Made by a program: the position numbers and the translations under genes. The notes beneath the pieces are model-generated. The model saw only the letters and a program-made list of their open reading frames with translations, made no database searches and was not told the origin of the DNA. Source: Aerococcus viridans (GTDB taxonomy: Bacteria > Bacillota > Bacilli > Lactobacillales > Aerococcaceae). From it: a stretch of DNA of 64,000 nt. Of the stretch, positions 21,954 to 42,451 are shown one piece after another. Positions within the stretch are counted from its first letter, which is position 1; each line of letters opens with the position of its first letter. Location of the stretch: positions 1,240,001-1,304,000 of the forward strand of contig NZ_NBTM02000001.1 of assembly GCF_002083135.2 (NCBI RefSeq), read 5' to 3'.

Positions 21954-22997
21954 ATGGAAAAGAGACAACAGAACTTTGAATTGCTTAGAATTATTGCGAT
22001 GTTCATGATTGTAGTATCACATGTAATTACCCACTATATCATGAAAGCAGATATTGAAATAAGTAGCGTGAATAATTTCTTACTAAGCCTACTGCGAGCC
22101 GTCATATATGTTTGTGTAAATGTTTATATTATTATTACAGGATATTTTTCAGTTAATTCTAAACAGTTAAAAATAAAGAAAATAATGAATGCAGCTTTGT
22201 TACCAGGATTTATTTCGGCGATTTTGCTTATGGTATTAATGGTATTTGGGGTTATTGATTTTGATATCTGGCGGATAGTAGGCAAATTATTTGCTACTTT
22301 TAGAGGTGAATACTGGTTTATTTCAACTTATTTTGCCCTATGCTTATTTATTCCTTTTTTAAATAAAATAATTCACACGTTAAGTCAAAAAGAGTTTCAA
22401 CAATTTCTCTTTTTACTTACGTCAGTTGGTATTATATGGCCATTCTTTGTAGATAGTAAGGAGTTTGTAGCCTTTAATTCAGGTTTTTCCTTAATATTCT
22501 TTTTCTTTTTATACTTTGTCGGTGCTTACATTCGTTTATATGGCGCTTTCTTCAAAGACTTTACACGCAATCAATATTTAATAGGTTATTTGATGCTTGC
22601 TTTAGTGACAGGTATATTACAATTTGCTTTACCAGAGATAGATTTTTTAAATTATAATGGTCCATTTGAGTTCACAATGTCTTATTTTATCTTTATGTAT
22701 ATCAAAAATGTAAAAGTTAACTCTGTTAAAATAAACACAATTGCTACCTATACTTTAAGTGTATATTTGGTGCATGAGCAAGCAGAAATACGTGAATTTA
22801 TTTGGAATTTGCCATTTATTCACCAAATTATACAGTGGTCGCCATTTACATTTATACCAGCTATCATCTTTGTGGCAGTAATTGTATTCACAGTATCATG
22901 GATTATCGGCTATACGCTAACCAACTTATATAACAAGGTTGAACAGTTTGTGTTTTATGTATTAGAGACTAGAGCGGGCAATCCGACAATTGAATAG
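21954..22997 (+). CDS. Acyltransferase family 3 membrane protein
   Basis: A 347-residue protein with about ten membrane helices. The N-terminal NFELLRIIAMFMIVVSHVI is the acyltransferase-3 signature with the catalytic His in VVSH, and FRGEYWFISTYFALCLFIPFLN (about 117-138) is typical of the WecH/polysaccharide O-acetyltransferase branch. Members transfer acetyl groups from acetyl-CoA to surface polysaccharides. There is no SGNH extracellular domain as in OatA. It lies 73 bases after the YfhO gene with no terminator, so the two may be cotranscribed. Target polymer unknown. Confidence 0.88.
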   Translation: MEKRQQNFELLRIIAMFMIVVSHVITHYIMKADIEISSVNNFLLSLLRAVIYVCVNVYIIITGYFSVNSKQLKIKKIMNAALLPGFISAILLMVLMVFGVIDFDIWRIVGKLFATFRGEYWFISTYFALCLFIPFLNKIIHTLSQKEFQQFLFLLTSVGIIWPFFVDSKEFVAFNSGFSLIFFFFLYFVGAYIRLYGAFFKDFTRNQYLIGYLMLALVTGILQFALPEIDFLNYNGPFEFTMSYFIFMYIKNVKVNSVKINTIATYTLSVYLVHEQAEIREFIWNLPFIHQIIQWSPFTFIPAIIFVAVIVFTVSWIIGYTLTNLYNKVEQFVFYVLETRAGNPTIE

Positions 22998-23011: not shown

Positions 23012-23050
23012 AAAAATGTGCGCTGGCTATCAACCAATGCACATTTTTTT
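23012..23050. terminator. Bidirectional terminator
   Basis: AAAAATGTGC...GG pairs with CC...GCACATTTTT between the convergent acyltransferase and GT4 genes, with A- and T-runs on both sides. Confidence 0.8.
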
Positions 23051-24164
23051 AGTTTTGTAATATTCTATTATAGATATCGATATAGTCTTGATGAATATCA
23101 TCCCATTGGAATTTTTTGGATTCTTTTAATGCATTTTTAGAAATTTCTGGATAGTACTTTTTGATGTAGTCGACAGCGTCTTTAAAGGCAGCAACATCAA
23201 ATCGATCTACCGAAACACCAACTCTTTTATTGGGGAAGAAACCATCAAACCCTTCGCCTTTTGTGTAAATTACTGGTAAAGCTTGGCTCATCGCTTCAAC
23301 ATACACCAATCCAAAGGTTTCTGGAGAAGACAGCAGGGCAAAGATATCTGCCGTTCGGTAAAAAGCAATTAATTGATTTTTATCCATTGGCTCGTGGTAA
23401 TTCACGTATGGTTTTTTAATTAATTCATCAAAAATACCCTGGTCCCAATTAGGACCGATAATATGTAATTCAGCTGGCGCTACATCCTGGTTATAGGTAG
23501 CAACATAATCTGCTAAAGTAAGTAAGTTTTTAGCCTTTTGAACTTTTGCGGTCGCAACAATTTTTAAAGGCTCATTTAAAGTCCCTTGGCGATTTTCAAA
23601 GGCATGTTCATGCCAGAATTGATCGATACCGTTTGGCATGACCAGAGTTTTTGCTAGTAATTCTTTTTTTAGCTTTTTGGGAATATATTTTTCAAAGGTA
23701 TTCTCAAAATTATTTTGTGAGATAAAAATAATTTGACTAGCATTTTTCAAAATATTCAAACCAATGGGTCTTAACCAAAAAGCTTTTTTGAAGAAGTCAG
23801 CAACTTCATTGCTTCTAACGGCTACGACATAGGGTGTACCATATTCTTTGTGAATTTGGTAGGCCATATATCCGTTAGTAAATAATGAATGGGCGTGAAT
23901 TAAGTCGTATTCGCCCGTTTTATAGCGGCTTTTTAAATCTTGATAGATTTTGTTTTGCTTATAGAAGTAAAAAAATCGCTCGATTTGGTTAAAGACACGA
24001 ACAGTCTCTGCATAGGGTGCTTTAGAAGCAATCCGTTCTTCAGGATACTGGTTTGAAATAGGGACGTATACATTAATATCATGTCCGTCAGCTACTTGAC
24101 GATCAAATAATTGCTGAAACAAGGGTGATGTTGAATAGTAAGAACAAGTATGTAAGATTTTCAT
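23049..24164 (-). CDS. Glycosyltransferase family 4 protein
   Basis: A 371-residue GT-B fold retaining glycosyltransferase. The N-terminal domain (MKILHTCSYYSTSPLFQQLFDRQ, then YDLIHAHSLFTNGYMAY) binds acceptor. The C-terminal half carries the nucleotide-sugar site: VVATAKVQKAKN (about 205-216) and the EX7E-type LLSSPETFGLVYVEAMSQALPVI (about 286-308). GAGGAG lies before the ATG. It is the only gene of this polysaccharide region on the minus strand and is divergent from ugd, so it may have its own control. Donor and acceptor sugars cannot be read from sequence. Confidence 0.88.
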   Translation of the reverse strand: MKILHTCSYYSTSPLFQQLFDRQVADGHDINVYVPISNQYPEERIASKAPYAETVRVFNQIERFFYFYKQNKIYQDLKSRYKTGEYDLIHAHSLFTNGYMAYQIHKEYGTPYVVAVRSNEVADFFKKAFWLRPIGLNILKNASQIIFISQNNFENTFEKYIPKKLKKELLAKTLVMPNGIDQFWHEHAFENRQGTLNEPLKIVATAKVQKAKNLLTLADYVATYNQDVAPAELHIIGPNWDQGIFDELIKKPYVNYHEPMDKNQLIAFYRTADIFALLSSPETFGLVYVEAMSQALPVIYTKGEGFDGFFPNKRVGVSVDRFDVAAFKDAVDYIKKYYPEISKNALKESKKFQWDDIHQDYIDIYNRILQN

Positions 24165-24337: not shown

Positions 24338-25504
24338 ATGAAAATAACGGTAGTGGGAGCAGGATACGTAGGATTGGCGAATGCCATTTTACTAGCACAA
24401 AACAATGAGGTAGTAGCGTTAGAAGTGAACCCAACAATTGTAGACATGTTAAATAATAAACAAGCACATATCGCTGATAAAGAAATTGAGCAATACTTAG
24501 CAACAAAACCTTTAAACTTACGAGCAACTTCTGATAAAGACGATGCTTATAAAGATACTGATTTTGTCATTGTTGCAACACCAACTAATTACGATGAAAC
24601 AACAAATTCATTTGATACATCAACAGTTGAAGGTGTAATTGACGATGTCTTATTACAAGATACTAAAGCGCCAATTATTATTAAATCTACAATTCCAGTT
24701 GGCTTTACCCAAGAAATGCGTCAAGCTAAAGGTACAGACCGTATCCTATTCTCGCCAGAGTTCTTACGTGAAGGACAAGCCTTATACGATAACTTAAATC
24801 CTTCTCGTATTATTGTTGGGGACCACACTGATCAAGCAAAACAATTTGCTAACTTATTAGCTGAAGGTGCCGAAAAAGAAGATATCGATGTCTTGTTTAT
24901 GGAACCAACAGAAGCTGAAGCCGTAAAATTGTTTGCAAATACATATTTAGCGATGCGTGTAGCCTTCTTCAATGAATTAGATACTTATGCACAAATGAAA
25001 GGCTTAAATAGCCAATCTATTATTGATGGTATTTCACTAGACCCACGTATTGGTACACACTACAACAACCCTTCATTTGGGTATGGTGGATACTGCTTAC
25101 CGAAAGATACGAAACAATTGCGTGCGAACTTTGAAGGTGTACCAAATAACATTATTTCAGCTATCGTTGAAGCAAATAAAACGCGCAAACACTTTATTGC
25201 GGATGCAGTTGCTGAAAGATCACCTGAAACAGTTGGTATTTTCCGTCTAACAATGAAATCATCATCTGACAACTTCCGTGAATCAGCTGTCCTAGACATC
25301 ATGCGTCAACTTGAAGCGAAGGGTCTAGAAGTCATTATCTATGAACCAACTTGGAAAGAAGCAACATACGATAATTATCAAGTAGTTGCTGACTTAGCTG
25401 ACTTTAAAGATAAAGCGGACGTTATCATTACAAATAGAATGACTGATGAATTAGCTGATGTTCCGAACAAAGTATTTACACGGGACGTTTACCACAACAA
25501 CTAA
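24338..25504 (+). CDS. ugd: UDP-glucose/UDP-sugar 6-dehydrogenase
   Basis: A 388-residue NAD-dependent dehydrogenase oxidising a UDP-hexose to the uronic acid. The Rossmann loop is VGAGYVGLA (6-14), and the catalytic Cys253 lies in [24 protein letters not shown] (138-146) contacts substrate. The short length groups it with streptococcal and Klebsiella-type Ugd enzymes. It implies a uronic acid in the surface polymer made by the neighbouring genes. GGAGG precedes the ATG. A terminator follows, so it is probably a single-gene transcript. Confidence 0.93.
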
Positions 25505-25644: not shown

Positions 25645-26814
25645 ATGCAAGAAGCGAAAAATAAAAAACAATTACGCATTTTACATGTGATGAGTGGCTT
25701 TGGTGGAGGCATCTCCTCGTTTATTTTAAATAAAGCCAAGCAAATGCCTAAGTATAATGTGACCTTTGATGTGGCCACCTATGATGAATGTAGCGAAGAA
25801 TTTGAACAAGCTATTCAAGCGACTGGCGGTCGGATTTTCCGTCTGGTTAATCCAAAAAAATATGGATTCAAAGCCTTTAAATCTTCTTTTTCAAAACCAT
25901 TTGAACAGGAGACCTATGATTTAGTTCACTGTCATATTGAAGGCTATCGTGCAATTCCCTATTACCGTATAGCAAAAAAATATGGCGTTAAACAGTTCTA
26001 TATTCATGCCCATCTAGTGAATGATTATAAAATCAAAAATAAGAAAGACCAATTTGTTCATGGTTTTAATCAAAAACTAAACACCCGGATTTCTACTGAT
26101 ATTGTTGGTTGTGGTCGCTTAGCCATTAAATCCGTATTTGGTCCAAAGACCAATTTAGATACTTCTATGGTTATTCCAAATTCTATTGATTTGAAGGAGT
26201 ATGCGAATCCGGATAATGTCTATGCACAACATAGAGAAGCGGGGCGCAAGCGATATAACCTTGATGAAAATACCCTTGTAATAGGCCATGTTGGGCGTTT
26301 AATGCCTGTGAAAAATCACGATAAAACATTTGAAATTGCAAAAGCCATTCAAGAAAATAATCTTAATGCAAAGATTCTAATTATCGGGTCAGGCAACTTA
26401 GAAGAAGAATTGAAGGCGAAAGCAGCAGACTTGGATATTCTCGATACCGTTATTTTTACTGGTAGAATCAGTCCAATTTCTGAATTCTATCCAGCTTTAG
26501 ATGTTTTACTGCTACCGTCCTTTACTGAAGGCTTGCCAACGACTGTTGTCGAAGTGCAAGGCGCAGGTGTGCCAACAGTGATGTCAGATATAATTACTTC
26601 TGAAGTTGACTTAGACTTGGGTATGGTTGCTACTTGTAGCTTAGACGATGATGGACAGGTATGGCTTGAGTCATTACAACAAATGGCCAATTCATCAGTT
26701 CCATCAGTAGAAAAACGGTTAGCTGCTTTGGAGAATAATTATTTTTCAAATGAGGCATCAGCGAAACTGTATGTAGATTTCTTTGTGGAGAAAATCGATG
26801 ACTTTAAACTTTAA
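25645..26814 (+). CDS. Glycosyltransferase family 4 protein
   Basis: A 389-residue GT-B glycosyltransferase resembling the EpsF/CapM group. RILHVMSGFGGGISSFILNKA (about 10-30) is the N-terminal glycine-rich loop. VIGHVGRLMPVKNHD (about 212-226) and the EX7E segment LLPSFTEGLPTTVVEVQGAGVP (about 290-311) form the donor site. GGGAGG precedes ATG 25645. It starts a run of closely packed genes (next starts 42 bases later) that continues through the polymerase and Wzz-like genes. Sugar specificity unknown. Confidence 0.9.
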   Translation: MQEAKNKKQLRILHVMSGFGGGISSFILNKAKQMPKYNVTFDVATYDECSEEFEQAIQATGGRIFRLVNPKKYGFKAFKSSFSKPFEQETYDLVHCHIEGYRAIPYYRIAKKYGVKQFYIHAHLVNDYKIKNKKDQFVHGFNQKLNTRISTDIVGCGRLAIKSVFGPKTNLDTSMVIPNSIDLKEYANPDNVYAQHREAGRKRYNLDENTLVIGHVGRLMPVKNHDKTFEIAKAIQENNLNAKILIIGSGNLEEELKAKAADLDILDTVIFTGRISPISEFYPALDVLLLPSFTEGLPTTVVEVQGAGVPTVMSDIITSEVDLDLGMVATCSLDDDGQVWLESLQQMANSSVPSVEKRLAALENNYFSNEASAKLYVDFFVEKIDDFKL

Positions 26815-26856: not shown

Positions 26857-28143
26857 TTGCTAGCATATCTTATTATTTTGGTATCTAGTGTTTTCCTTGG
26901 GTCCAATTTAATTGCCGTTACTTTACCAGTAGGTCAGATTTCAATATATCGGATATTTTCGCTATTAGTGATTCCAATGGTCATCTTTTTCTTAGTTAAA
27001 GATAGAAAAGCTTTTAAAATCCACCGTAATTCCTATGCTACCGGAATGGTAGCTGTTTATCTACTTTGGTGGGTATGGGCCTTATGCTCGGTCCTTTGGG
27101 CGATGAGCCTAGGGTCTTGGCTTCAAGCGATGGTCTTGTTGACTTTAGGGATATCCAGTATCGTTGGTATCTTTTTATGGACTAGAGATTATGTCCAATG
27201 GCGGACTTTAATCAAAGCAGTATGGATCATGATGACCTTTTTAAGTATTTGGGGATTATTTGAAATCACCACAAATATTTATTTACTTGCCGATCTGGGT
27301 AAATTGGACAAATATTCGACCTTCGTGACGCAACCGTGGACGAGGATACCAATCACTTATCTTGCCAACCAAAATGACTATGCAACAATATTATTAGCGA
27401 CATTACCAATTAACTTAATTCTTATGAATACAACGAAGGATAGTTTGAAGAAATTATTAACGCTTTTATGTATGCTTTTATCAACGTTTTTAATTTTCCA
27501 ATCCGGCTCACGGATGAGTTTACTAATGGCACTGACCTTTTACGGTATATATGTCTTATTAGGCGTTCGTTGGGATTTCACAAGAAAGCAAGTGTTAACT
27601 ACCGGAAGTATTGTCTTAACACTAGCTATACTCGCTTTTGCTTTCGTCCCGCCAATTAGAGGGATGGTTACTGACTTAATTTATATTTTACCTAGACCGG
27701 TAATTTCTGGAGATGTGGGTAGGATGAATATGTGGCGAAATGGGTTAATGTACTTAGGTAAGACTTTCGGTCTTGGTGTAGGTGCTGGTAATATAGAAGT
27801 GTGGATGGAGATATTTGGACCATTACCAACCAATAATATCTTTAATATTCACAATTGGTGGTTAGAAATCCTCGTGGGCTATGGCGCCTTCATATTTATC
27901 GCCTATGTCTTAGGATACGCCTTGATGATATATCGTCTATTCAATTTGAAAAAATTTGTCAATAGAATGCACCAGAAGATTATGAATGCATTCATTTCAT
28001 TTTTACTTGTTTTTATTGGTGCAAGTATTACAAGTGCTAATAATATGTTAATTGAATGGCATTGGGTATTCTTCGGATTAATTATTGCCTACATTGGTAT
28101 TATGGAAGCACAAGTTTTTGGAAAGAAAAAGAGGGTAGAATAA
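26857..28143 (+). CDS. Wzy/O-antigen ligase-like membrane protein
   Basis: A 428-residue protein with about 11-12 membrane helices of the Wzy_C (O-antigen ligase/polymerase) superfamily. Its large outer loop, LGVGAGNIEVWMEIFGPLPTNNIFNIHNWWLEILVGYG (about 307-344), has the conserved HNWWLEILVGYG ending. By context it polymerises lipid-linked repeat units in a Wzx/Wzy pathway. The start is TTG 26857, with AGGAGG at 26841-26846. Its stop abuts the next gene's ATG, so translation is coupled. Confidence 0.85.
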   Translation: MLAYLIILVSSVFLGSNLIAVTLPVGQISIYRIFSLLVIPMVIFFLVKDRKAFKIHRNSYATGMVAVYLLWWVWALCSVLWAMSLGSWLQAMVLLTLGISSIVGIFLWTRDYVQWRTLIKAVWIMMTFLSIWGLFEITTNIYLLADLGKLDKYSTFVTQPWTRIPITYLANQNDYATILLATLPINLILMNTTKDSLKKLLTLLCMLLSTFLIFQSGSRMSLLMALTFYGIYVLLGVRWDFTRKQVLTTGSIVLTLAILAFAFVPPIRGMVTDLIYILPRPVISGDVGRMNMWRNGLMYLGKTFGLGVGAGNIEVWMEIFGPLPTNNIFNIHNWWLEILVGYGAFIFIAYVLGYALMIYRLFNLKKFVNRMHQKIMNAFISFLLVFIGASITSANNMLIEWHWVFFGLIIAYIGIMEAQVFGKKKRVE

Positions 28144-29253
28144 ATGAGTTTATTAACAATAATTGCTGAACTATGGCGATTTTTCATCAATAACATCATC
28201 AAAATTATAATCGGCGCAATCATTGTCATGGGATTGACCTTAGGTGCTCGGATGCTTTTAACCAATTACATTGAAAACTCTGCAATTGGTGAAGCAACTT
28301 CTGAAACATCTGCGAATGCAGAATTAACACCAGAAGAAATCGAAGCATCATATAACCATTTAGCAACGGTATATGAACAAGAGCCAGCAGAATTCTCTTT
28401 TGTGGGCATCAATCCAGAAGGGTTAATTTTAGGTAATTCATTTATTTTAGATGAATTATTATCTCGTCCAGATATTGTGGCTGAGTTAGAAGAGATTTCT
28501 GGTGTCGATATTACCACTACGCTAGAAGCACAAGAAAATGTTGGACTAGAAAAATCACGCGACTTCCGTGGAGGACTTGCAGCCGTTCGAAATACCTCTA
28601 CGGATGAAATCACTATGCGTGTCTTAGTGGGGCAAACTGCAGAAGAAAACTTAGCTGTGGCAGAAGCTATCTATCAATATATTGTTGATGGCAATGTACC
28701 AATTTATGAAAATTACGACATTACTTTCTTATCTACACCAGATATCGGTGAAGATTTAATTGTTGAAGAAAATATGATGATTCCAACACCTGAGACATTA
28801 TCAGGGCTTCAACCACAAGAAACTGGTGGCTCATTACTCATCTATGCTGTTTTAGGTGGGGTTCTAGGTGTGATTTTATCAACAGTCGTATTATTTGTCT
28901 TACATTTCTTCAGTAAGAAAATTACCTATGCGTATGATTACATTTGGGATTTTGATGACTACCAATGGTTAGTAGATAGCAAAAAGGTTAATACAGAAAA
29001 TTTAAATAACTGGTTAATGATTCCAGCTGATAAAAGTAGAGTTGCCTTAGCGCAAACGACAGATAATGAAATTGTCCAAGCTTTCTCAAACACACAGCTA
29101 CCAGTTAGCAATCAATTAAATGTTGAAGATCAAGCGCCTGAAGAAGTGATTATCTTTGTTGAATCAGGTACTACTGATAAAGATTGGTATCAAAATCAAT
29201 TTGAATTGAGTAAGTTGTATGAATCAAGAGTGAAGATTATTCACTTGAAATAG
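28144..29253 (+). CDS. Wzz-like two-helix membrane protein with unusual cytoplasmic tail
   Basis: A 369-residue protein with Wzz-type topology: helix 1 (about 15-37), an acidic extracellular region (about 40-230), and helix 2 (about 232-256). Unlike CpsC it has a further 110-residue cytoplasmic part. That ends in EEVIIFVESGTTDKDWYQNQ and then helix and VKIIHLK, which looks like the last strands of a Rossmann or BY-kinase fold but has no Walker motif. The likely role is chain-length control or polymerase partner for the abutting Wzy gene; this is inferred from topology and position only. A separate CpsC lies at 54.9 kb. Confidence 0.6.
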   Translation: MSLLTIIAELWRFFINNIIKIIIGAIIVMGLTLGARMLLTNYIENSAIGEATSETSANAELTPEEIEASYNHLATVYEQEPAEFSFVGINPEGLILGNSFILDELLSRPDIVAELEEISGVDITTTLEAQENVGLEKSRDFRGGLAAVRNTSTDEITMRVLVGQTAEENLAVAEAIYQYIVDGNVPIYENYDITFLSTPDIGEDLIVEENMMIPTPETLSGLQPQETGGSLLIYAVLGGVLGVILSTVVLFVLHFFSKKITYAYDYIWDFDDYQWLVDSKKVNTENLNNWLMIPADKSRVALAQTTDNEIVQAFSNTQLPVSNQLNVEDQAPEEVIIFVESGTTDKDWYQNQFELSKLYESRVKIIHLK

Positions 29254-29265
29254 GAGGCAAAGCAG

Positions 29266-30027
29266 ATGACTTTCCAATCCAATTTAATCTCAATAGTAAC
29301 ACCGGTCTATAATGCTGAACGATTCATTGGTGAAACGATTAAAGGTGTTCAAGCCCAAGAGTATGCTAATTGGGAGATGTTACTAGTGAATGATCAATCG
29401 TCAGATAACAGCCTGGAAATTATCGAACAGTTTGCAGCAGAAGATAGCCGAATTAAACTGATTAATTTAGCCGAAAATAGTGGTGCCGCTGTAGCTCGAA
29501 ACACTGGTATTGAAGCGGCCCAAGGTCAATATATTGCCTTCGTCGATTCAGATGATGTGTGGGATAAGGATAAATTAATCAGACAAATCACATTCATGAA
29601 AAAAGGTGACATCGCTTTTTCTTACACGGACTTTCGTCTTGTTGATGAAACGGGTCAAGTGCTGAAAGAAAAAGCCAATGTACCCATTTCCTTGGACTAT
29701 ACTGGTTTATTGAAAAATACGGCTATTGCTTGTTCAACAGTGATGATTGATCGAAATATCATTGGTGATTTCCGGATGCCTCTTGTACGAAAAGGTCAAG
29801 ATACTGCAACTTGGTTACAGATCATGCGGGAAACGGGCATTTCAGCCTTTGGTATTACTCAACCTTTAAATTCTTATCGACAAGTTGCAGGGTCAATTTC
29901 AAGTGACAGAGTAGGTGCCTTAAAACGTACTTGGAATACCTATTACAATTTAGAAAAATTACCACTACCAAAAGCAAGTTACTATTTCGCTTCCTATGTT
30001 GTCAATGCGATATTAAGAAGATTATAA
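29266..30027 (+). CDS. Glycosyltransferase family 2 protein
   Basis: A 253-residue GT-A fold inverting glycosyltransferase. SIVTPVYNAERFIGETI (9-25) begins the nucleotide-binding region, VNDQSSDNS (41-49) follows, and the metal-binding DSD is at 94-96. GAAVARNTGIEAAQG is the usual helix before it. No membrane helix is present, so it acts on a lipid-linked sugar at the inner face of the membrane. GGAGG lies before ATG 29266, 12 bases after the preceding gene. A perfect hairpin and a tRNA gene follow. Confidence 0.9.
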   Translation: MTFQSNLISIVTPVYNAERFIGETIKGVQAQEYANWEMLLVNDQSSDNSLEIIEQFAAEDSRIKLINLAENSGAAVARNTGIEAAQGQYIAFVDSDDVWDKDKLIRQITFMKKGDIAFSYTDFRLVDETGQVLKEKANVPISLDYTGLLKNTAIACSTVMIDRNIIGDFRMPLVRKGQDTATWLQIMRETGISAFGITQPLNSYRQVAGSISSDRVGALKRTWNTYYNLEKLPLPKASYYFASYVVNAILRRL

Positions 30028-30032
30028 TGATG

Positions 30033-30059: not shown

Positions 30060-30063
30060 ATCT

Positions 30064-30136
30064 GGTCTCGTAGCTCAGGGGATAGAGCACTCGTTTCCTA
30101 AACGAGGTGTCGGAAGTTCGAATCTTCTCGGGACCG
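30064..30136 (+). tRNA. tRNA-Arg (CCU anticodon)
   Basis: A 73-base cloverleaf can be drawn by hand. The acceptor arms GGTCTCG and CGGGACC pair (one G-U), with discriminator G at 30136. The D arm is TAGCTCAGGGGATAGAGCA. The anticodon stem CTCGT/ACGAG encloses TTCCTAA, giving anticodon CCT, which reads AGG arginine codons. The T arm has GTTCGAATC. CCA is not encoded. It sits in the same direction between two polysaccharide genes, with no clear promoter or terminator of its own. Confidence 0.95.
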
Positions 30137-30173
30137 TTAACAAAATTAAAGCAGAAATATTGTGAGGATAAAA

Positions 30174-31541
30174 ATGAAGACTTTAAAGAACATTTTAAGC
30201 GTTGCAATGTCTAATATTGTCGGTTTCGGGACTAGCTTTATCGTTGGTTTCATCTTGCCGGGGATCTTGACTGTCGCGCAATACGGGTCTTATAGGCAAT
30301 ATACCTTGTACCTGAGTTTTACCTACCTTTTCCATTTAGGATTTGCGGATGGAATTTATATTAAGTATGGTGGTAAGGAATTAAATGACTTAGATCAAAA
30401 TGTTATCAGAGATGAACATAATTTTGCCAACTTTTTCCAATTTATTATGTTTATAGGGATGTTTCTGATTTCTTTAATCACAAAAGATCCGGTACTGATT
30501 CTATTTTCTATCGTTACTTTCTTTTCTAATGTGACAACGTATCAATCAAATTTTTTACAAGCAGTTGGTCAATTTAAAACATTTACCGTAGCATCAATGT
30601 TCCGGTCAGTATCTTATATCGCACTGTTGTTGATCGGAATTTTTATTTTTAAATCGGAAGACTACGTATTCTATATCATATTAAATGTATTGTCTTATGT
30701 GTTAATGTACATCTATTATGAATTCCGATTTGTTAAGCAATTAGGTTTTAATCCCGCCTTTACTGTAAAAGATAAATTTGAAATTTTTAGAGTCGGATTT
30801 TTAATCTTGTTAGCAAATATGTCGTTAACTTTTGTTGGGAATATTGGTTCGTGGATTGCTAACTGGGGATTCCCAATTGAAGAATTCGCACAATATTCGT
30901 TCCAAAACTCAGTGTTAAACGTTATTATTCTAATCGTTAACGCTGTGGCTCTAGTTTTTTATAATTTAATATCAAAGACGGATTCACCTCGAGTTGCTAA
31001 TGTAATCAAACAATTGACGCTATTACTAGGTATTTTTGGTGGATTAGGATTCTTTGTATTTAAGTGGATTATTGAGTATTTCTTACCTAACTATGTTGCT
31101 TCAATCGAGTTATTATCCATTACCTTTGTATCGATTCCATATATTATGATTTCAAAAATCGTTGTGGCCAATCTATACAAGGCTAAACGAAGTGAGCGAA
31201 AATATATCCGCGACTCAATTTTATATGCGGTATTGGCCTTTGCTTTTGTAGCCATCGTATTCTTTATCACTAAATCATTATCTGGTATTGCATGGGCGAC
31301 AACCTTATGTTATTTCTTGTGGTACATTTATGCTTCACGGCGTGAGTTTACGGCTATGAAGGGTGATACCAACGAGTGGTTGTTGATCATAAGTCATGTA
31401 CTAGTATTTTACTTTACGGCGAATGTATTAAATACTTACATTGGATTCTTTGCATATGCCATTTTCTTAGCTATTATTTTGGTTATGAAGCGAGTAGAGT
31501 TACAAGATATTTTCCAACAAATTGTAAAGATGGAAGATTAG
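30174..31541 (+). CDS. Wzx-type polysaccharide flippase
   Basis: A 455-residue membrane protein with about 12-14 helices, of the MVF/MATE polysaccharide exporter superfamily. The N-terminal half begins with KNILSVAMSNIVGFGTSFIVGFILPGILTVAQYGSYRQ, the typical Wzx opening in which a YG motif follows helix 1. It would flip undecaprenyl-diphosphate repeat units to the outer face. I prefer ATG 30174 (GAGG seven bases upstream) over GTG 30162. It starts 38 bases after the tRNA, so it may depend on readthrough from the upstream genes. Confidence 0.85.
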   Translation: MKTLKNILSVAMSNIVGFGTSFIVGFILPGILTVAQYGSYRQYTLYLSFTYLFHLGFADGIYIKYGGKELNDLDQNVIRDEHNFANFFQFIMFIGMFLISLITKDPVLILFSIVTFFSNVTTYQSNFLQAVGQFKTFTVASMFRSVSYIALLLIGIFIFKSEDYVFYIILNVLSYVLMYIYYEFRFVKQLGFNPAFTVKDKFEIFRVGFLILLANMSLTFVGNIGSWIANWGFPIEEFAQYSFQNSVLNVIILIVNAVALVFYNLISKTDSPRVANVIKQLTLLLGIFGGLGFFVFKWIIEYFLPNYVASIELLSITFVSIPYIMISKIVVANLYKAKRSERKYIRDSILYAVLAFAFVAIVFFITKSLSGIAWATTLCYFLWYIYASRREFTAMKGDTNEWLLIISHVLVFYFTANVLNTYIGFFAYAIFLAIILVMKRVELQDIFQQIVKMED

Positions 31542-31584: not shown

Positions 31585-34215
31585 ATGAAAATAAAAAAAA
31601 TAAATAAGCAGATAATTTTTAAAGAATTTTTTGTGATTTTATTATTGATAAGTGCATCAATTTTGATGCATTTTTTCTTTATTAACAATCAATGGCACGA
31701 TAATTTATTAATGGCTGGGCCGAATGACCAGACGCAACAAATGTTAATTTTCAAAGATTTCTTATATAAAGAATTTACTAAAGGTAATTTTTTCTACAGT
31801 TTTAACTACAGTGGAGGTGGAAACTTTCTAACCAAATTAAGTTACTATTATACAACTTCTATATTTTATTATATGACGGTATTGGTAACTTGGATATTGG
31901 AAAAATGTCAGATAATTAGCACTCCAGATATTGTATACTGGGGAGAAATCTCCTTATTTCTTTCGGTTATCAAATCTAGCTTAATTGCATATTTCGCAAG
32001 TATAAGCATCTCGAAATTTAAAGTACGCAGATCCGTGTCTATCTTTGCAGCTACATTCTATGCATTTGCTCCTATTTATTTCAGACATGCTGTTCTCTGG
32101 GATTTTTTTACAGATGCCATGTTATGGTTGCCGATTATCTTGTTAGGAGTAGAATGGATTTTTGAAGGCAAAAAGGGTTGGTTATTTAGTTTAGGTGTAG
32201 CTTTGACCTTATTTAATAACGGATACTTTGCCTTTGCAAATTTATTGTTATGTGGTTGCTATGCTATTATGCGATTGTTCATACCATTAAATAAAGATGA
32301 AATAGCCTGGGATAAAAAATTAAAGAAAATAATAATATATGGGATGCTTGGAGTAGGTATTTCATCTATAGGTTTTATAGTATTTGTTAAAGGATTTCTC
32401 GATAACAGTAGAAGTAGTGTAGATGTAATCGCACCACTTTGGGATAAAGAGAATTTTTCATTTGAAAGGATATTAATTTCAGACCCCATACAAGTTGTTT
32501 CTTTTATATATTTACTCGTAATTTTTAATGTTAAAAATTATCGATCAAAAATATTTCAATTTTTTAGTTGTTTCACGACAATATTAATTATCATTCGTTA
32601 TAGCCCTAAAGTGGCTAGTATTTTCAACGGATTAAGTACACCACAATATCGGTGGCACTACATAACTTATTTATTTATTGCTATTACAATTGGCATTGGT
32701 ATTGAACAATTATTGAAACATAAATCTCTAAAATCAAGTATCTTGGCTTCGGGGCTTACATTATTGATTTATTACAGTACTTTAAAATCTATGGATAATA
32801 GTTATAACATTAATAGAAAATATTTTATGATGCTTATAGGTATTGCGATGCTATTCTATGTAGTTCTTGGATATACAAAAGAAGCTAGAACACAATTCAT
32901 AGCTTTGGTAGCATTATTCTTATTCACAATACCGTTCATCAATCAGTTTAATTTACGACTATTTGAACAATATAATATGGAAGCAGTCACTAAAGATTAT
33001 TTATTTGATACATTTGAAAATCCAAACACGAATATATCACAAGCTATTAACTTTATTGAGAATGATGCAAATAGCTTTTATCGTATAGAATATGCGGGCA
33101 TGGCTAATTTAGGCATAGCATATGAGCAAAGTACCTTTAATAATTATTCGAGCTTTCAAAATAAATATGAACAGGATTTTATAGATTTTTTCGGTTTAAC
33201 TAATATTAAGGATAGCAGTGTTTCTATCGATGGATTGGGTGCTAGACAGATAACAAATAGTTTATTTCAAATTGATTACGTTATCGCTAAAGAAGATGAG
33301 CAATATATTGTACCTGCTGGATATGAGAAAATTAAAAGTTTTGGTGAATTATCCGTTTATAAAAATAAATATCCTTTTGCTTTTATACATCCAGTAAAAA
33401 ATCAATATCAAATAACTAATAATACATCCCTTGACTTCAAGGATTTACAATTAATTGATGGCGTATATACTACTTCTAGTAAAAATCAGCCGCTATCTAT
33501 AGACCTAAAAAATGACCTAAATTTTAGTATAGAAAAGAATAATTTCTATCACGATAATTATATTTCAAAATCGGATGAAGGTATCAAATTAGTTGCTAAC
33601 ATCGATGCAGGTCAATCCTATGATGAGCTTATAATTGATTATACGTTAAAAGCTGATACAGATTATTATACTGGTAACTATAACTATTTAATTAATGGCA
33701 TGGAACTTCAAATGAAATCACCAAAGGATAAATATGCTCTGCAACAATTTCATCACCAAGTAACTATCCCATTTAATGACCAAATTTTATTTGATTTTGC
33801 TGGTGGTAGCGGCTACGATTTTGAAATCAATCATATTTATGGACTATCATATGATCAGTTGGAAGCAAGAAGTAATGAAGATAAAAAATTAGATTACAAT
33901 TTGGAACTAGCACAAGATAAATTAGAGATTAACTTTGATAACAGTGATGGTTATACCTATTTAGTATTACCAATATTCTATGAAGACGGTTGGCAATTAG
34001 AGATCAATAATGAAAAAATCACAATAGAAAATGTTAACAATGGTATGATAGGATTTAAAATACCAAAAGGTCAATTAAATATCAAAATGAAGTTTGTACA
34101 ACCATATTTATATAGTTCAATAGTTGTGAGTCTAGTGTCTCTATTGATCTTAATTTTGCTAGACAGCAAAATATTCAGTAAGTTGTTTAAAATCACTAGT
34201 CAAAAGGTCAACTAA
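31585..34215 (+). CDS. YfhO-family membrane glycosyltransferase (copy 2)
   Basis: An 876-residue YfhO-family protein with about 12-13 N-terminal helices, a long outer domain (about 475-845) and a last helix (about 848-868). The first outer loop has GPNDQTQQ with Asp48 at the presumed GT-C catalytic position. Little sequence is shared with copy 1 beyond the fold and the closing pattern YEDGWQLEIN near the C-terminus (copy 1: YDPGWKVKVD). GGGGGAGAAAAGG precedes the ATG. The gene is very AT-rich. It is followed by GtrB- and GtrA-like genes, giving a complete candidate lipid-linked sugar transfer set. Confidence 0.85.
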   Translation: MKIKKINKQIIFKEFFVILLLISASILMHFFFINNQWHDNLLMAGPNDQTQQMLIFKDFLYKEFTKGNFFYSFNYSGGGNFLTKLSYYYTTSIFYYMTVLVTWILEKCQIISTPDIVYWGEISLFLSVIKSSLIAYFASISISKFKVRRSVSIFAATFYAFAPIYFRHAVLWDFFTDAMLWLPIILLGVEWIFEGKKGWLFSLGVALTLFNNGYFAFANLLLCGCYAIMRLFIPLNKDEIAWDKKLKKIIIYGMLGVGISSIGFIVFVKGFLDNSRSSVDVIAPLWDKENFSFERILISDPIQVVSFIYLLVIFNVKNYRSKIFQFFSCFTTILIIIRYSPKVASIFNGLSTPQYRWHYITYLFIAITIGIGIEQLLKHKSLKSSILASGLTLLIYYSTLKSMDNSYNINRKYFMMLIGIAMLFYVVLGYTKEARTQFIALVALFLFTIPFINQFNLRLFEQYNMEAVTKDYLFDTFENPNTNISQAINFIENDANSFYRIEYAGMANLGIAYEQSTFNNYSSFQNKYEQDFIDFFGLTNIKDSSVSIDGLGARQITNSLFQIDYVIAKEDEQYIVPAGYEKIKSFGELSVYKNKYPFAFIHPVKNQYQITNNTSLDFKDLQLIDGVYTTSSKNQPLSIDLKNDLNFSIEKNNFYHDNYISKSDEGIKLVANIDAGQSYDELIIDYTLKADTDYYTGNYNYLINGMELQMKSPKDKYALQQFHHQVTIPFNDQILFDFAGGSGYDFEINHIYGLSYDQLEARSNEDKKLDYNLELAQDKLEINFDNSDGYTYLVLPIFYEDGWQLEINNEKITIENVNNGMIGFKIPKGQLNIKMKFVQPYLYSSIVVSLVSLLILILLDSKIFSKLFKITSQKVN

Positions 34216-34234
34216 AAGGAGGAGTCAGAGATAT

Positions 34235-35185
34235 ATGTTATCAGTAATTGTACCGTGTTATAATGAAGAAGAATCTATTCATCTTTTCTACAAAGAAATG
34301 GAAAAGGTAAAGCAATTGATGGATCAAGATATTGAATATATTTTTGTGAATGATGGTTCATCGGATAATTCTTTAAATGAAATGAGAAAGCTAGCCAAAG
34401 AGAATGATCAAGTGCGCTATATTTCGCTTTCAAGAAATTTCGGTAAAGAAGCAGGGATTTATGCAGGTTTAAAACAAGCTAAAGGGGACTTTGTTACTTT
34501 AATGGATGTAGACTTGCAAGATCCACCTGAATTACTGCCAGTAATGCTTGATAAACTATACCAAGATCCAACCCTTGATTGTGTTGGAACGAGAAGAGTA
34601 GACCGCGGTGGGGAACCGCCTATCCGTAGCTTTTTTGCTAAAAAATTTTATTCCCTCATGAATAAAATTAGTGATACGGAATTTGTAGATGGGGCACGTG
34701 ATTATCGGTTAATGACCAGACAGATGGTGAATGCTATTCTTGAGTTGACAGAGTACAACCGCTTTTCAAAGGGATTATTTTCGTGGGTAGGATTTAATAC
34801 TATCTATCTTGAATTTGAAAATAGAGAAAGAGTCGCTGGTAATACTACTTGGTCTTTCTGGAGCTTGTTTAAATATTCAGTAGAAGGAATCATCAATTTT
34901 TCTGAAGTACCTTTGTCAATTGCTTCATATTCTGGAGCCTTGATGTTCGTCATTTCTATTATTGCAGGATTGATCATAATATTACGCGCTTTAATATTCG
35001 GAGATCCAACTGCGGGGTGGCCTTCTCTAGTAGTGATTATCTTGTTTATCGGCGGTATTCAGTTATTGTGTCTCGGTATCATCGGAAAATACATTAGCAA
35101 AATTTTCCTAGAAACTAAAAATAGACCCATATTTATTATTAAAGAAACTGAAGCAGATTTAAGAGAAGAGTGGAACGAGGATTAA
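34235..35185 (+). CDS. GtrB/CsbB-type polyprenyl-phosphate glycosyltransferase
   Basis: A 316-residue GT2 protein of the DPM1/GtrB group: an N-terminal catalytic domain (SVIVPCYNEEES 3-14, FVNDGSSDNS 37-46, MDVDLQDPPE 90-99 with the DXD) and two C-terminal helices (about 228-252 and 264-288). Characterised relatives link glucose or GlcNAc from a nucleotide sugar to undecaprenyl phosphate on the inner face. AAAGGAGGAG precedes ATG 34235, 19 bases after the YfhO gene. Its stop overlaps the GtrA start. In Bacillus csbB and yfhO are likewise adjacent and act together on lipoteichoic acid. Confidence 0.92.
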   Translation: MLSVIVPCYNEEESIHLFYKEMEKVKQLMDQDIEYIFVNDGSSDNSLNEMRKLAKENDQVRYISLSRNFGKEAGIYAGLKQAKGDFVTLMDVDLQDPPELLPVMLDKLYQDPTLDCVGTRRVDRGGEPPIRSFFAKKFYSLMNKISDTEFVDGARDYRLMTRQMVNAILELTEYNRFSKGLFSWVGFNTIYLEFENRERVAGNTTWSFWSLFKYSVEGIINFSEVPLSIASYSGALMFVISIIAGLIIILRALIFGDPTAGWPSLVVIILFIGGIQLLCLGIIGKYISKIFLETKNRPIFIIKETEADLREEWNED

Positions 35186-35592
35186 TGATGGCATTTATAG
35201 ATAAGTTGAAGAAACAGTTATTTAATCAAGAATTTGTTATCTATGTAGTTTTTGGCGTATTAACAACATTAGTCAATATTGTGTCATTCTTTCTAATGAG
35301 ACAAGTATCAAGTCTTTTTGTTTCTAATACAGTGGCTTGGATTTTATCTATTATATTTGCTTATATTACCAATAAGATTTGGGTGTTTAAAGCAAGAGAA
35401 TGGTCAATACGTATAATTCTTAAAGAATTTGCCAGCTTTGTCACTTTCCGTTTATTATCTTTTTTGATTGACATGTTGTTAATGTTTTTATTAACCTACC
35501 TAAGTATAGGAGAAGGTTGGGCAAAACTTGTAACACAAATTGTGGTCGTCTTGTTGAATTATATTTTTAGTAAAGTATTTATATTCAAATAA
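35185..35592 (+). CDS. GtrA-like flippase
   Basis: A 135-residue protein with four membrane helices (about 16-37, 40-60, 77-98, 107-130), of the GtrA family. The FVIYVVFGVLTTLVNIVSFF opening and the ending LLNYIFSKVFIFK are typical. Known members move undecaprenyl-phosphate-sugar to the outer face for use by a GT-C enzyme, here presumably YfhO copy 2. The start ATG 35185 overlaps the preceding TAA by one base, indicating coupling; ATG 35188 is the alternative. Confidence 0.9.
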   Translation: MMAFIDKLKKQLFNQEFVIYVVFGVLTTLVNIVSFFLMRQVSSLFVSNTVAWILSIIFAYITNKIWVFKAREWSIRIILKEFASFVTFRLLSFLIDMLLMFLLTYLSIGEGWAKLVTQIVVVLLNYIFSKVFIFK

Positions 35593-35610
35593 ATTATGAT
35601 GTTAATCACT

Positions 35611-35663
35611 AAAAAATCGCTACCAATGTACTTAGTTTTCTAGGTACTTGGTAGCGATTTTAT
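35611..35663. terminator. Bidirectional terminator
   Basis: AAATCGCTACCAA pairs perfectly with TTGGTAGCGATTT. An A-run before it and T-rich bases after it serve both the gtrA-like gene and the convergent minus-strand gene. Confidence 0.85.
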
Positions 35664-35671
35664 TGTTTATA

Positions 35672-35989
35672 CTAATTATTTGCTTCTTCTAAACTGTCGA
35701 CTTGGCCCTCTAAGGCTTCGATACGAGATTCCATCTCTTGGATTTGAAGATTGATTTCTTTAGAACTATCGATTGTTGGCGCCACATCTTCATTAGGGTT
35801 CATTACCATAATTAACCAAATTAAAAGAAAAATAATGGCCACGGCAAGGGTGATATATAACCAGTTTAACTTGGGCGACCCTTTGTCTAGATATTCCAGG
35901 GTTTCCTCAACTTTTTGTCGGTCCATGTTCTTTAAACGATTATATAGTTCATTCAAGTCGTTTTCGTTATTTTTTTGATCGCGTGACAT
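35672..35989 (-). CDS. Small single-pass membrane protein with coiled coil
   Basis: A 105-residue protein I do not recognise. The N-terminal 40 residues are charged and helical (NDLNELYNRLKNMDRQKVEETLEYLD). One membrane helix lies at about 44-63 (WLYITLAVAIIFLLIWLIMVM). The C-terminal part (about 75-105) is a likely coiled coil (INLQIQEMESRIEALEGQVDSLEEANN). I chose ATG 35989 because AAAGGAGG is well spaced; the TTG two codons earlier overlaps that site. It follows the aminopeptidase by 48 bases on the same strand and is probably in its operon. Confidence 0.7.
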   Translation of the reverse strand: MSRDQKNNENDLNELYNRLKNMDRQKVEETLEYLDKGSPKLNWLYITLAVAIIFLLIWLIMVMNPNEDVAPTIDSSKEINLQIQEMESRIEALEGQVDSLEEANN

Positions 35990-36037
35990 GGTCAACCTCC
36001 TTTAACTTGTGTGTAAAAGTAATTAATGACTAGGTGA

Positions 36038-39775: not shown

Positions 39776-41389
39776 ATGACAAAGCAAGATAATCAAAACA
39801 ATCAGGGCACTAGCCGGCGCAATAATAGAAAAGAGAAATCATTCAATTTAAAAGCTCTAAGATCTTCAAAATGGTTACCTAAAGAAAAGAAGACCTATTG
39901 GATTTTAGGCGTCGCGGCTTTGGTAGTCGTTATATGTGCGGTTGCCTTTAAAGTATATGCTGATATTTCTGGATTCGGTTCTGATATTTATGAAGATGTG
40001 AATTCAAAGCAACTTCGTGATGCGGATACCCAATTAAAAAATGGCGAACCGATTACTATTTTACTAACAGGCCTTGATAGTGGGGCACTTTATTATGAAG
40101 ATGTTGAGGAGACACGGACGGATGTAATGATGGTCTTCACCATTAATCCAAAGACCAACGAATCAACTGTCGTTTCTATTCCAAGGGATGCCTTAGGGGT
40201 CCAAAGTGATAGGGATGAATTTGATAAATTAAACCACGCTTATATGAATTATGATGGGATTGAAGGGACAATCAACTCTCTACAGCGCTATTTAGATATG
40301 CCAATTGATTATTATGTGAATGTCAATATGCAAGGGTTTATGGATGTGATTGATGCCCTTGGGGGTGTGGATATTACACCAACTTTAACTTTTACTCAAA
40401 ACGAGGTTTCTTTTACAGAAGGCGAAACACGTACCTTATCTGGTTTAGAAGCCATACAATACGTACGGATGCGTAAATCGGATCCTGAAGGCGACATTGG
40501 CCGTGAAAAACGACAACAACAATTAATCGAAGAGGTAGTAGATAAGGTCATTTCACTTGGGACCATTACCAATTACAATGACATCTTAGATGCCGTAGGT
40601 GACGATATCAAAACAAATATTACAGTGGATAATATGTTTGCCTTACAAGCCAATTACCTGCCAGCTTTGGATAATTTAAATAAATTAGTCTTTGATGACT
40701 ATGTTGACCTAAACCTTGATTTTGGTTACTATATGTTAATTCCAGAGCTAGAACGTTTAGAAATTGTATCCATCATGCAAGACAATTTAGACTATGAAGC
40801 AACTAACTCAGCTATTGTTTACCCTGTAGAGTATGGGGTTGAATCAACCTACTTCCCAGTGTCTGACTTGAATTGGGACGGCGTCTTAACAGATGACGAA
40901 ATGGCCATTGAGGCAGGGGTATATTCAAGGGAAGACTTGAACGAACTAGTCAAATACATATTTGGTTATTCAATTAATGACTACTTAGAATCAACAGGGA
41001 ACACAGCCTTAATCGATGAAAATGAAAATCAAACAATTCCAACTACTTTAGATGATGAATTGCTAGAACATATTACTGCTGGCTTTGACCCAAGTGGCAC
41101 TGTGACTGAGGATACAAGTACTGAGTTAGATACTTACAGTGACACAGCTACGGAAAAAGACACGGGAACATATTACGATTCATCTACTTATTCAGAAACA
41201 TCAGATTATACAGATACCTATAGCGACACTTATAGTAATGAAGCGGCGGCGACATCAGAATCAACGACAGTACCTGAAGAAAGCGTGCCAGAAACGGGTC
41301 AACAAGCACCTGCCACGTCAGAAGCGCCGGTTACATCTGAAGAACCTGTGACCGATATGCCTGTTGAAGAAAGTACCGTTACAGAATAA
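39776..41389 (+). CDS. LytR-CpsA-Psr family protein with Ser/Thr-rich tail
   Basis: A 537-residue LCP enzyme, a type expected to move undecaprenyl-linked glycopolymers onto peptidoglycan. It has a basic cytoplasmic start, one helix (about 42-61) and an outer LCP domain (about 90-290) with ILLTGLDSG, RTDVMMVFTI, VVSIPRDA and IQYVRMRKSDPEGDIGREKRQQQ, which carry the conserved Asp and Arg residues. The last 100 residues are low complexity (TDTYSDT, TSEAPVTSEEPVT), a likely wall-spanning or glycosylated stalk. AGAGGAG precedes ATG 39776. A second LCP gene follows after 69 bases. Confidence 0.92.
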   Translation: MTKQDNQNNQGTSRRNNRKEKSFNLKALRSSKWLPKEKKTYWILGVAALVVVICAVAFKVYADISGFGSDIYEDVNSKQLRDADTQLKNGEPITILLTGLDSGALYYEDVEETRTDVMMVFTINPKTNESTVVSIPRDALGVQSDRDEFDKLNHAYMNYDGIEGTINSLQRYLDMPIDYYVNVNMQGFMDVIDALGGVDITPTLTFTQNEVSFTEGETRTLSGLEAIQYVRMRKSDPEGDIGREKRQQQLIEEVVDKVISLGTITNYNDILDAVGDDIKTNITVDNMFALQANYLPALDNLNKLVFDDYVDLNLDFGYYMLIPELERLEIVSIMQDNLDYEATNSAIVYPVEYGVESTYFPVSDLNWDGVLTDDEMAIEAGVYSREDLNELVKYIFGYSINDYLESTGNTALIDENENQTIPTTLDDELLEHITAGFDPSGTVTEDTSTELDTYSDTATEKDTGTYYDSSTYSETSDYTDTYSDTYSNEAAATSESTTVPEESVPETGQQAPATSEAPVTSEEPVTDMPVEESTVTE

Positions 41390-41458
41390 ATCATATAATA
41401 CTAAACAGCATAAAATTTGTAAAAGTTTTTATATCTATCTTTGAGGAGGAGGGATTAT

Positions 41459-42451
41459 ATGGCAAATAGAGAAAGTCGCCATCGTAGAAGTCAAGGGGAA
41501 GCGTATCATGAGGAGCGTCCTCGTAAGAAACGTCGTGGCTTATTGGGTTGTTTTGGTTGGGTTTTGTTAGCCTTTTTAATTATTGGGGGTGGGATTCTTG
41601 CATACTCATACTACCGAATTGACCAAACAGGAGACGCGATTTATCAACCTGCGGACGCCGATGGTGCGGAACCGGTAGAAGAAGTCCGTGAAAAAGAAGT
41701 GACTGTTTCGGATAAAGAGCCAATTTCTATTTTACTCATGGGGATGGACTCAGGGGGGACGAGAACGACTGGTGAACAAAATACTGACGTCATGATTCTT
41801 GTGACCATTAACCCGAATACACAAACTGCTAAAATGGTATCCATTCCACGTGATACTTATGTTTCAAGTATTGATTTCAAGATTAACGGTGCTTATGCTA
41901 TGGCCGGTGGGGCATCTGGTTCAATCAATGCAGTTCAAAACCTATTGAACGTGCCGGTTGACTACTATGCCTTAGTGAATATGACGGGCATGATGAACAT
42001 CATCGATGCAATTGGTGGGGTATCCTTATACAATGATTTCAGTTTCTCTCAAGATGAATATACCTTCCCAGAAGGTCAAATCACCTTGGAAACAGGTGCT
42101 GAAGCCCTAGCATACGTTCGTAACCGTTACGATGATCCAGATGGTGACTATGGTCGCGCTGACCGTCAACGTCAAGTTTTATTAGCCATCTTAGATAAGT
42201 ATTCTGATGTATCAAATATTGGGTCTCTAGGTAGCTTGTTTGACACAGTACAAGCCAATGTGGTTACTGACTTAACTGTTTCAGATATGACCCAATTAGC
42301 TTTGAACTACCGAGTTGACTCTGAAAATGTTGAATCTACTACTTTAGTAGGTACGGGCGATATGTCGACAGGTATTTACTACAATATCCTATCTGAATCG
42401 CAAATTTCAGAAACCTCTACAGAACTTAGAGAACATTTAGAATTAGAATAG
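41459..42451 (+). CDS. LytR-CpsA-Psr family protein
   Basis: A 330-residue LCP enzyme, second of a tandem pair. A strongly basic cytoplasmic segment (PRKKRRG) leads into one helix (about 31-52) and the outer LCP domain (about 85-290): ILLMGMDSGG, NTDVMILVTI, MVSIPRDTYV and LAYVRNRYDDPDGDYGRADRQRQ. It lacks the long low-complexity tail of the first copy. The start is ATG 41459, preceded by GAGGAGGAGGG; an upstream TTG lies within that site. The pair may serve different polymers, for example wall teichoic acid and capsule. Confidence 0.92.
   Translation: MANRESRHRRSQGEAYHEERPRKKRRGLLGCFGWVLLAFLIIGGGILAYSYYRIDQTGDAIYQPADADGAEPVEEVREKEVTVSDKEPISILLMGMDSGGTRTTGEQNTDVMILVTINPNTQTAKMVSIPRDTYVSSIDFKINGAYAMAGGASGSINAVQNLLNVPVDYYALVNMTGMMNIIDAIGGVSLYNDFSFSQDEYTFPEGQITLETGAEALAYVRNRYDDPDGDYGRADRQRQVLLAILDKYSDVSNIGSLGSLFDTVQANVVTDLTVSDMTQLALNYRVDSENVESTTLVGTGDMSTGIYYNILSESQISETSTELREHLELE

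Follow-up and report, generated by a model that had tools for sequence, protein, structure and literature searches.

Three adjacent genes in a 64,000-nucleotide stretch of the Aerococcus viridans genome (contig NZ_NBTM02000001.1, positions 1,240,001 to 1,304,000; hereafter the window) encode a YfhO-family protein (YfhO_A), a GtrB-type transferase and a GtrA-type flippase, at the end of a polysaccharide cluster (Table 1). The explanation that we favour, with fair but by no means full confidence, is that this trio is a unit for undecaprenyl phosphate-linked sugar (Und-P-sugar) that decorates the polysaccharide of the cluster, its GtrB and GtrA feeding all three YfhO proteins of the genome. GtrB would move a sugar from a nucleotide sugar onto undecaprenyl phosphate inside the cell, GtrA would carry the Und-P-sugar to the outer leaflet, and YfhO_A, a GT-C glycosyltransferase, would put the sugar on the Wzy-made, probably glucuronate-containing polysaccharide of this cluster, either before LCP proteins fix it to peptidoglycan or as they do so. 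The same pair would also supply the two other YfhO proteins, YfhO_B and YfhO_C, and YfhO_A would be the exchangeable, acceptor-specific component. The families of the three proteins are secure; from them and their context we infer the enzymatic activities, the donor sharing and the acceptor.

A sequence-only reading of the window had described the three genes as following each other at 19 bases and then with a one-base overlap, and the open reading frame positions and the start and stop letters agree with its coordinates and spacing. The 19 nt between YfhO_A and GtrB contain a Shine-Dalgarno-like stretch (GGAGGAG), while the GtrB stop TAA (35183-35185) and the GtrA ATG (35185-35187) are fused as TAATG, an overlap that is real if this ATG serves as the GtrA start. 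A longer GtrA form in the open reading frame list, starting at a GTG at 35170, is unnecessary, and the 135-residue form is found in relatives (loci L031 and L033). The placement of the trio at the cluster end also holds, the unit being closed by a long hairpin that terminates it against a convergent gene; the 75 nt at 35596-35670 that contain this hairpin have a z-score of -9.5. The convergent gene (35672-35995, minus strand) encodes a conserved small protein of 107 residues, with one transmembrane segment and a coiled-coil-like tail, and stays beside an aminopeptidase gene in related loci.

The PF09586 match of YfhO_A spans the entire model (336 bits, E 7e-100). Eight positions are invariant in an alignment of 26 YfhO sequences, R356 among them and, within the first outer loop, D48 and Q52. 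The acidic motif of that loop, at the conserved position of the catalytic aspartate, is a single residue, D48, invariant in 26/26, and not a DxD. A PDB sequence search with this protein gave no match, and the fold search alone succeeded. With the AlphaFold2 model (predicted local distance difference test, pLDDT, 82.2; predicted template modelling score, pTM, 0.84), the only PDB matches at E<0.001 were mycobacterial AftD (three entries), EmbC2, ArnT and AftA, the matched ArnT structure carrying bound undecaprenyl phosphate. AftD, EmbC, ArnT and AftA are GT-C enzymes using polyprenyl-phosphate sugars. Against CBM35 carbohydrate-binding domains the model gave weaker matches (E about 0.1), which are suggestive at most. 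The proposal that YfhO_A is a GT-C enzyme is thereby borne out, and a placement outside the GT-C sugar transferases, when checked, was not found, the fold matching GT-C enzymes only at E<0.001. Since these are all of the polyprenyl-phosphate-sugar type, sequence and model together assign the trio to the multi-component transmembrane glycosylation systems.

GtrB is a full-length homologue of the solved Synechocystis GtrB 5EKP (E 9.5e-74 in a PDB sequence search) and matches PF00535 in a profile search (E 9.5e-32); it has a DxD motif at D91-x-D93 (DVD) and two hydrophobic helices at its C-terminus. GtrA has four helices and matches PF04138 with 75 bits (cut-off 26; E 7e-21), and a PDB sequence search with it gave no match. 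By pattern match, it holds the positions corresponding to A65, N69, V73, F74, F91, R95, K121 and N132 of Listeria GtcA, the R95-K121 spacing being one residue off. In Listeria GtcA, R95 and N132 are required for both lipoteichoic acid (LTA) and wall teichoic acid (WTA), K121 for LTA, and F74 and F91 for WTA (PMC7389260). The two proteins are thus what the sequence-only reading took them to be, a GtrB-type transferase with two C-terminal helices and a four-helix GtrA-like protein, and its division of labour, in which GtrB loads, GtrA flips and YfhO attaches the sugar outside, is well supported as a prediction by families, motifs, fold and precedent.

Relatives show how the locus varies. Aerococcus sp. 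UBA6277 has the same locus, with a YfhO protein 92% identical, and the locus of G064 resembles that of the window from Ugd through the LCP genes. At the same site in another Aerococcus (G069), GtrB and GtrA are 96% and 94% identical, and YfhO just 33%. Its flanking housekeeping genes are 91-99% identical, the small gene past GtrA 88%, the acyltransferase 79%, and GT4, Wzy, Wzz, TuaG and Wzx 62-84%; it also carries an extra gene of 478 aa, with no Pfam match, between the TuaG-like gene and tRNA-Arg/Wzx (L031:13539-14975). In the YfhO tree, the YfhO_A clade is split from YfhO_B and YfhO_C with support 1.0, and YfhO_A clusters with another genus (G034, G003, G023), not with G069. Three further genomes differ in what lies between Wzx (or the contig end) and GtrA. 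G026 has a UDP-sugar dehydrogenase, GtrB (64%), a distant GtrA and no GT-C. In G008 and G063, whose GtrB is about 64% identical and whose GtrA is distant, the site also holds a second GT2, a membrane protein of 402 aa and a protein of DUF6020 type. The 402-aa protein, encoded between GtrB and GtrA, has no Pfam match (AlphaFold2 pLDDT 45, two sequences), and it and the DUF6020-type protein (L017:6807-10154, L034:4420-7761) could be replacement GT-C enzymes. Trios of GtrB, GtrA and a YfhO of the divergent clade also occur outside the genus, in G012, G056, G060 and Oceanobacillus (L011, L012, L013, L008-L010), with no adjoining Wzy-type polysaccharide cluster in the loci read.

Might YfhO_A then be a recent, mildly constrained passenger of little effect, with GtrB and GtrA chiefly serving a housekeeping YfhO_C? 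The genus sample keeps GtrB in 15/16 genomes and a YfhO_A-type protein in 3, and G026 has the pair at the locus without a YfhO there, which makes the pair independent of YfhO_A. The ratio of nonsynonymous to synonymous substitution rates (dN/dS) of YfhO_A against G064, 0.24, is above that of most neighbouring genes. It is however well below 1, YfhO_A keeps all the invariant residues, and its translational spacing to GtrB is tight, so that we consider such a passenger unlikely.

YfhO enzymes are usually treated as teichoic acid glycosyltransferases, and the sequence-only reading had named both teichoic acid and the cluster's polymer as possible acceptors. For the former, the genome contains no match to PF00884 (LtaS family) or to PF04464 (TagF/TagB family), both searches being positive in the B. 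subtilis and L. lactis controls. It thus lacks the LtaS-type gene for the polyglycerol-phosphate LTA that is the acceptor of LTA-glycosylating CsbB/YfhO systems, as well as the TagF/TagB-type polymerase or primase that goes with WTA-glycosylating YfhO of the Listeria Lmo1079 type. Because both families are missing, polyglycerol-phosphate LTA or WTA is an unlikely acceptor here. PF00884 is also absent from 27 of the 61 genomes of the family sample (this one included), and all 27 keep YfhO, so the YfhO family must have other acceptors. The cluster's own polymer fares better: YfhO changes with the polymer-specific genes while GtrB and GtrA can stay, which points to that polymer as the most likely acceptor of YfhO_A.

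In a rival reading, YfhO_A would decorate a teichoic acid made without LtaS or TagF, such as a pneumococcus-like type IV, and its position in the cluster would be mere linkage. CsbB, GtcA and YfhO do act on LTA or WTA in Bacillus, Staphylococcus and Listeria (PMC7389260, PMC8035078), the YfhO systems of known polymer in a review table target teichoic acid (PMC8035078), and YfhO is present in 59 of the 61 family genomes. Yet the absence of both gene families from this genome, the retention of YfhO in every family genome without PF00884, and the distance in the tree between YfhO_A, exchanged with polymer genes, and the widespread YfhO_C type make such an acceptor quite unlikely; the literature on Aerococcus teichoic acid and LTA synthase yielded nothing direct.

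Several points nevertheless weigh against decoration of the cluster polymer by a trio that belongs together. To the independence of the pair in G026 are added the YfhO_A-type genes of G003, G023 and G034, which have no adjoining GtrB or GtrA and which, in G003 and G034 (gene lists read), lie outside polysaccharide clusters. The cluster has no recognised priming transferase; two candidates, both PF02397 genes, lie elsewhere in the genome. Linkage to the cluster is an argument that falls short of proving the acceptor, and the exclusion of teichoic acid covers PF00884 and PF04464, with type IV teichoic acid genes not searched.

The sharing of the donor is suggested by copy number. A genome search, in which the GT-C count is that of the YfhO family only, gave one GtrB, one GtrA and three YfhO; a second, weak GtrB match is the TuaG-like gene. 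YfhO_A and YfhO_B flank the cluster, one at either end, and YfhO_C lies at G000:C1:1566900-1569521. With one GtrB and one GtrA against three YfhO, the pair is probably common to the three enzymes, sharing being the simplest reading of these counts. The complete candidate module of the sequence-only reading therefore survives as three genes and their families, and probably not as something self-contained; a single dedicated module was rejected on the same counts. In the family sample, GtrB is present in all 61 genomes and is outnumbered by YfhO in 17. There are precedents for donor sharing: in Listeria 4b two GT-C enzymes work with a single GttA, and in Lactococcus three work with a single CflA (PMC8035078). 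The YfhO_B gene has a guanine-plus-cytosine content of 29% and lies between purR and the acyltransferase gene. It is missing at its site from three relatives (G064, G069 and G026; loci L055, L056 and L032), and thus looks like a recent insertion; that YfhO_B is part of the conserved cluster was rejected for the same absence.

One GT-A enzyme with two YfhO-family proteins also makes up the Pgf system (PgfS, PgfM1, PgfM2) of Streptococcus mutans, which modifies the surface proteins Cnm and WapA (PMC5856776). PgfS is the best NCBIfam model for GtrB (309 bits), and YfhO_B and YfhO_C resemble PgfM1 (365 and 489 bits), as would be expected if YfhO_A, too, glycosylated surface proteins. But these scores all lie under the curated cut-offs for equivalogs (500 for PgfS, 1400 for PgfM1), YfhO_A itself scarcely matches PgfM1 (45/1400 bits) or PgfM2 (49/1500 bits), no adhesin gene adjoins it, and no PgfE epimerase gene is recognised beside the trio. 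We hold a surface-protein acceptor to be very unlikely.

The general mechanism of the trio has already been described in Bacillus, Staphylococcus, Listeria and Lactococcus, as well as for the gtr genes of Shigella phages. CsbB-GtcA-YfhO of B. subtilis and S. aureus (LTA) and of Listeria (WTA) has the same three families and proposed mechanism (PMC7389260, PMC8035078), whereas here the genes are adjacent, the YfhO comes from a divergent clade, and LtaS-type and TagF-type genes are absent from the genome. The gtrA-gtrB-gtrX genes of Shigella phages, responsible for serotype conversion, likewise combine a loader, a flippase and an acceptor-specific transferase that alter a polysaccharide (PMC7117936); the likeness would be functional, the present trio being chromosomal, inside a polysaccharide cluster, and with a GT-C of the YfhO family. 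In Lactococcus lactis (CsdAB, CsdCD and CsdEF with the shared CflA), several GT-C enzymes again have components in common, and cell-wall polysaccharide is an acceptor (PMC8035078), but each GT-C there has its own GT-A and the flippase alone is shared, whereas here there is a single GtrB too. With tuaABCDEFGH of Bacillus subtilis the cluster shares a UDP-glucose dehydrogenase, a TuaE-like polymerase and a TuaG-like transferase; it differs in having no TuaA, scores below the cut-offs, and an added YfhO-GtrB-GtrA tail.

Three points are new: one GtrB-GtrA pair probably serves three YfhO, the YfhO can be exchanged while GtrB and GtrA stay constant, and neither LtaS nor TagF is present. On this small locus one could study what makes a GT-C enzyme select its polymer, and whether several decorations draw on one Und-P-sugar pool. 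More tentatively, and with somewhat less than even confidence, the system may be the chromosomal equivalent, in a Gram-positive bacterium, of phage serotype conversion: a fixed GtrB-GtrA at the end of a Wzy-type cluster would feed one lipid-linked sugar to several YfhO, and joint exchange of YfhO and polymer genes would set the surface serotype in cells without LtaS or TagF. Human H-ficolin has a surface polysaccharide of Aerococcus viridans among its standard ligands, and the binding is strain-dependent (PMC6379837); variable decoration of the YfhO type is a possible cause.

The surrounding cluster probably makes a glucuronate-containing, peptidoglycan-anchored, teichuronic-acid-like polysaccharide. 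Its nature is one that we infer only, because the scores against Tua models are each under the curated cut-off (TuaD 142/700 bits; TuaE and TuaG in Table 1) and the cluster has no recognised priming enzyme.

Table 1. The YfhO_A-GtrB-GtrA trio and the polysaccharide cluster around it (positions in the window).
Feature	Position	Strand	Description	Evidence
YfhO_B	19301-21880	+	second YfhO, opposite cluster end	PF09586, 582 bits
Acyltransferase family 3	21954-22997	+	candidate for polymer acylation	PF01757
GT4 glycosyltransferase	23049-24164	-		PF00534
UDP-glucose 6-dehydrogenase	24338-25504	+	UDP-glucuronate supply	NF011631, 571 bits (cut-off 757); TIGR03026 above cut-off
GT4 glycosyltransferase	25645-26814	+		PF00534
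Wzy polymerase	26857-28143	+	TuaE-like	PF04932, 41 bits; NF047675 (TuaE), 126 bits (cut-off 400)
Wzz/TuaF-like protein	28144-29253	+	chain-length candidate	position and shape only; no Pfam or NCBIfam match
GT2 glycosyltransferase	29266-30027	+	TuaG-like	NF047683, 295 bits (cut-off 400)
tRNA-Arg(CCT)	30063-30137	+	within cluster	ARAGORN
Wzx-like polysaccharide flippase	30162-31541	+	43 nt upstream of YfhO_A	PF01943, just below cut-off
YfhO_A	31585-34215	+	GT-C glycosyltransferase of 876 aa; beta-rich domain at the C-terminus; candidate for the acceptor-specific enzyme	PF09586
GtrB	34235-35185	+	polyprenyl-phosphate glycosyltransferase of 316 aa (GT2) with DxD and two helices at the C-terminus	PF00535, 5EKP
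GtrA/GtcA-type flippase	35185-35592	+	135 aa; four helices	PF04138, residue pattern
Hairpin terminator, probably bidirectional	35613-35661		between GtrA and convergent gene 35672-35995	dG (free energy) -32.1 kcal/mol
LCP glycopolymer-peptidoglycan ligase	39776-41389	+		TIGR00350
Second LCP ligase	41441-42451	+		TIGR00350

The tRNA-Arg(CCT) gene between the TuaG-like and Wzx genes occupies the same site in five related loci (L007, L017, L018, L031, L033), and a promoter-like site (11/12) lies near it at 29999-30028. A second polysaccharide cluster of the same genome, near G000:C1:1452800-1463000, could be decorated too; the locus that covers it (L054, G000:C1:1444000-1463900) contains a short priming transferase, an aminotransferase-like gene, glycosyltransferase-like genes and a Wzx-like protein.

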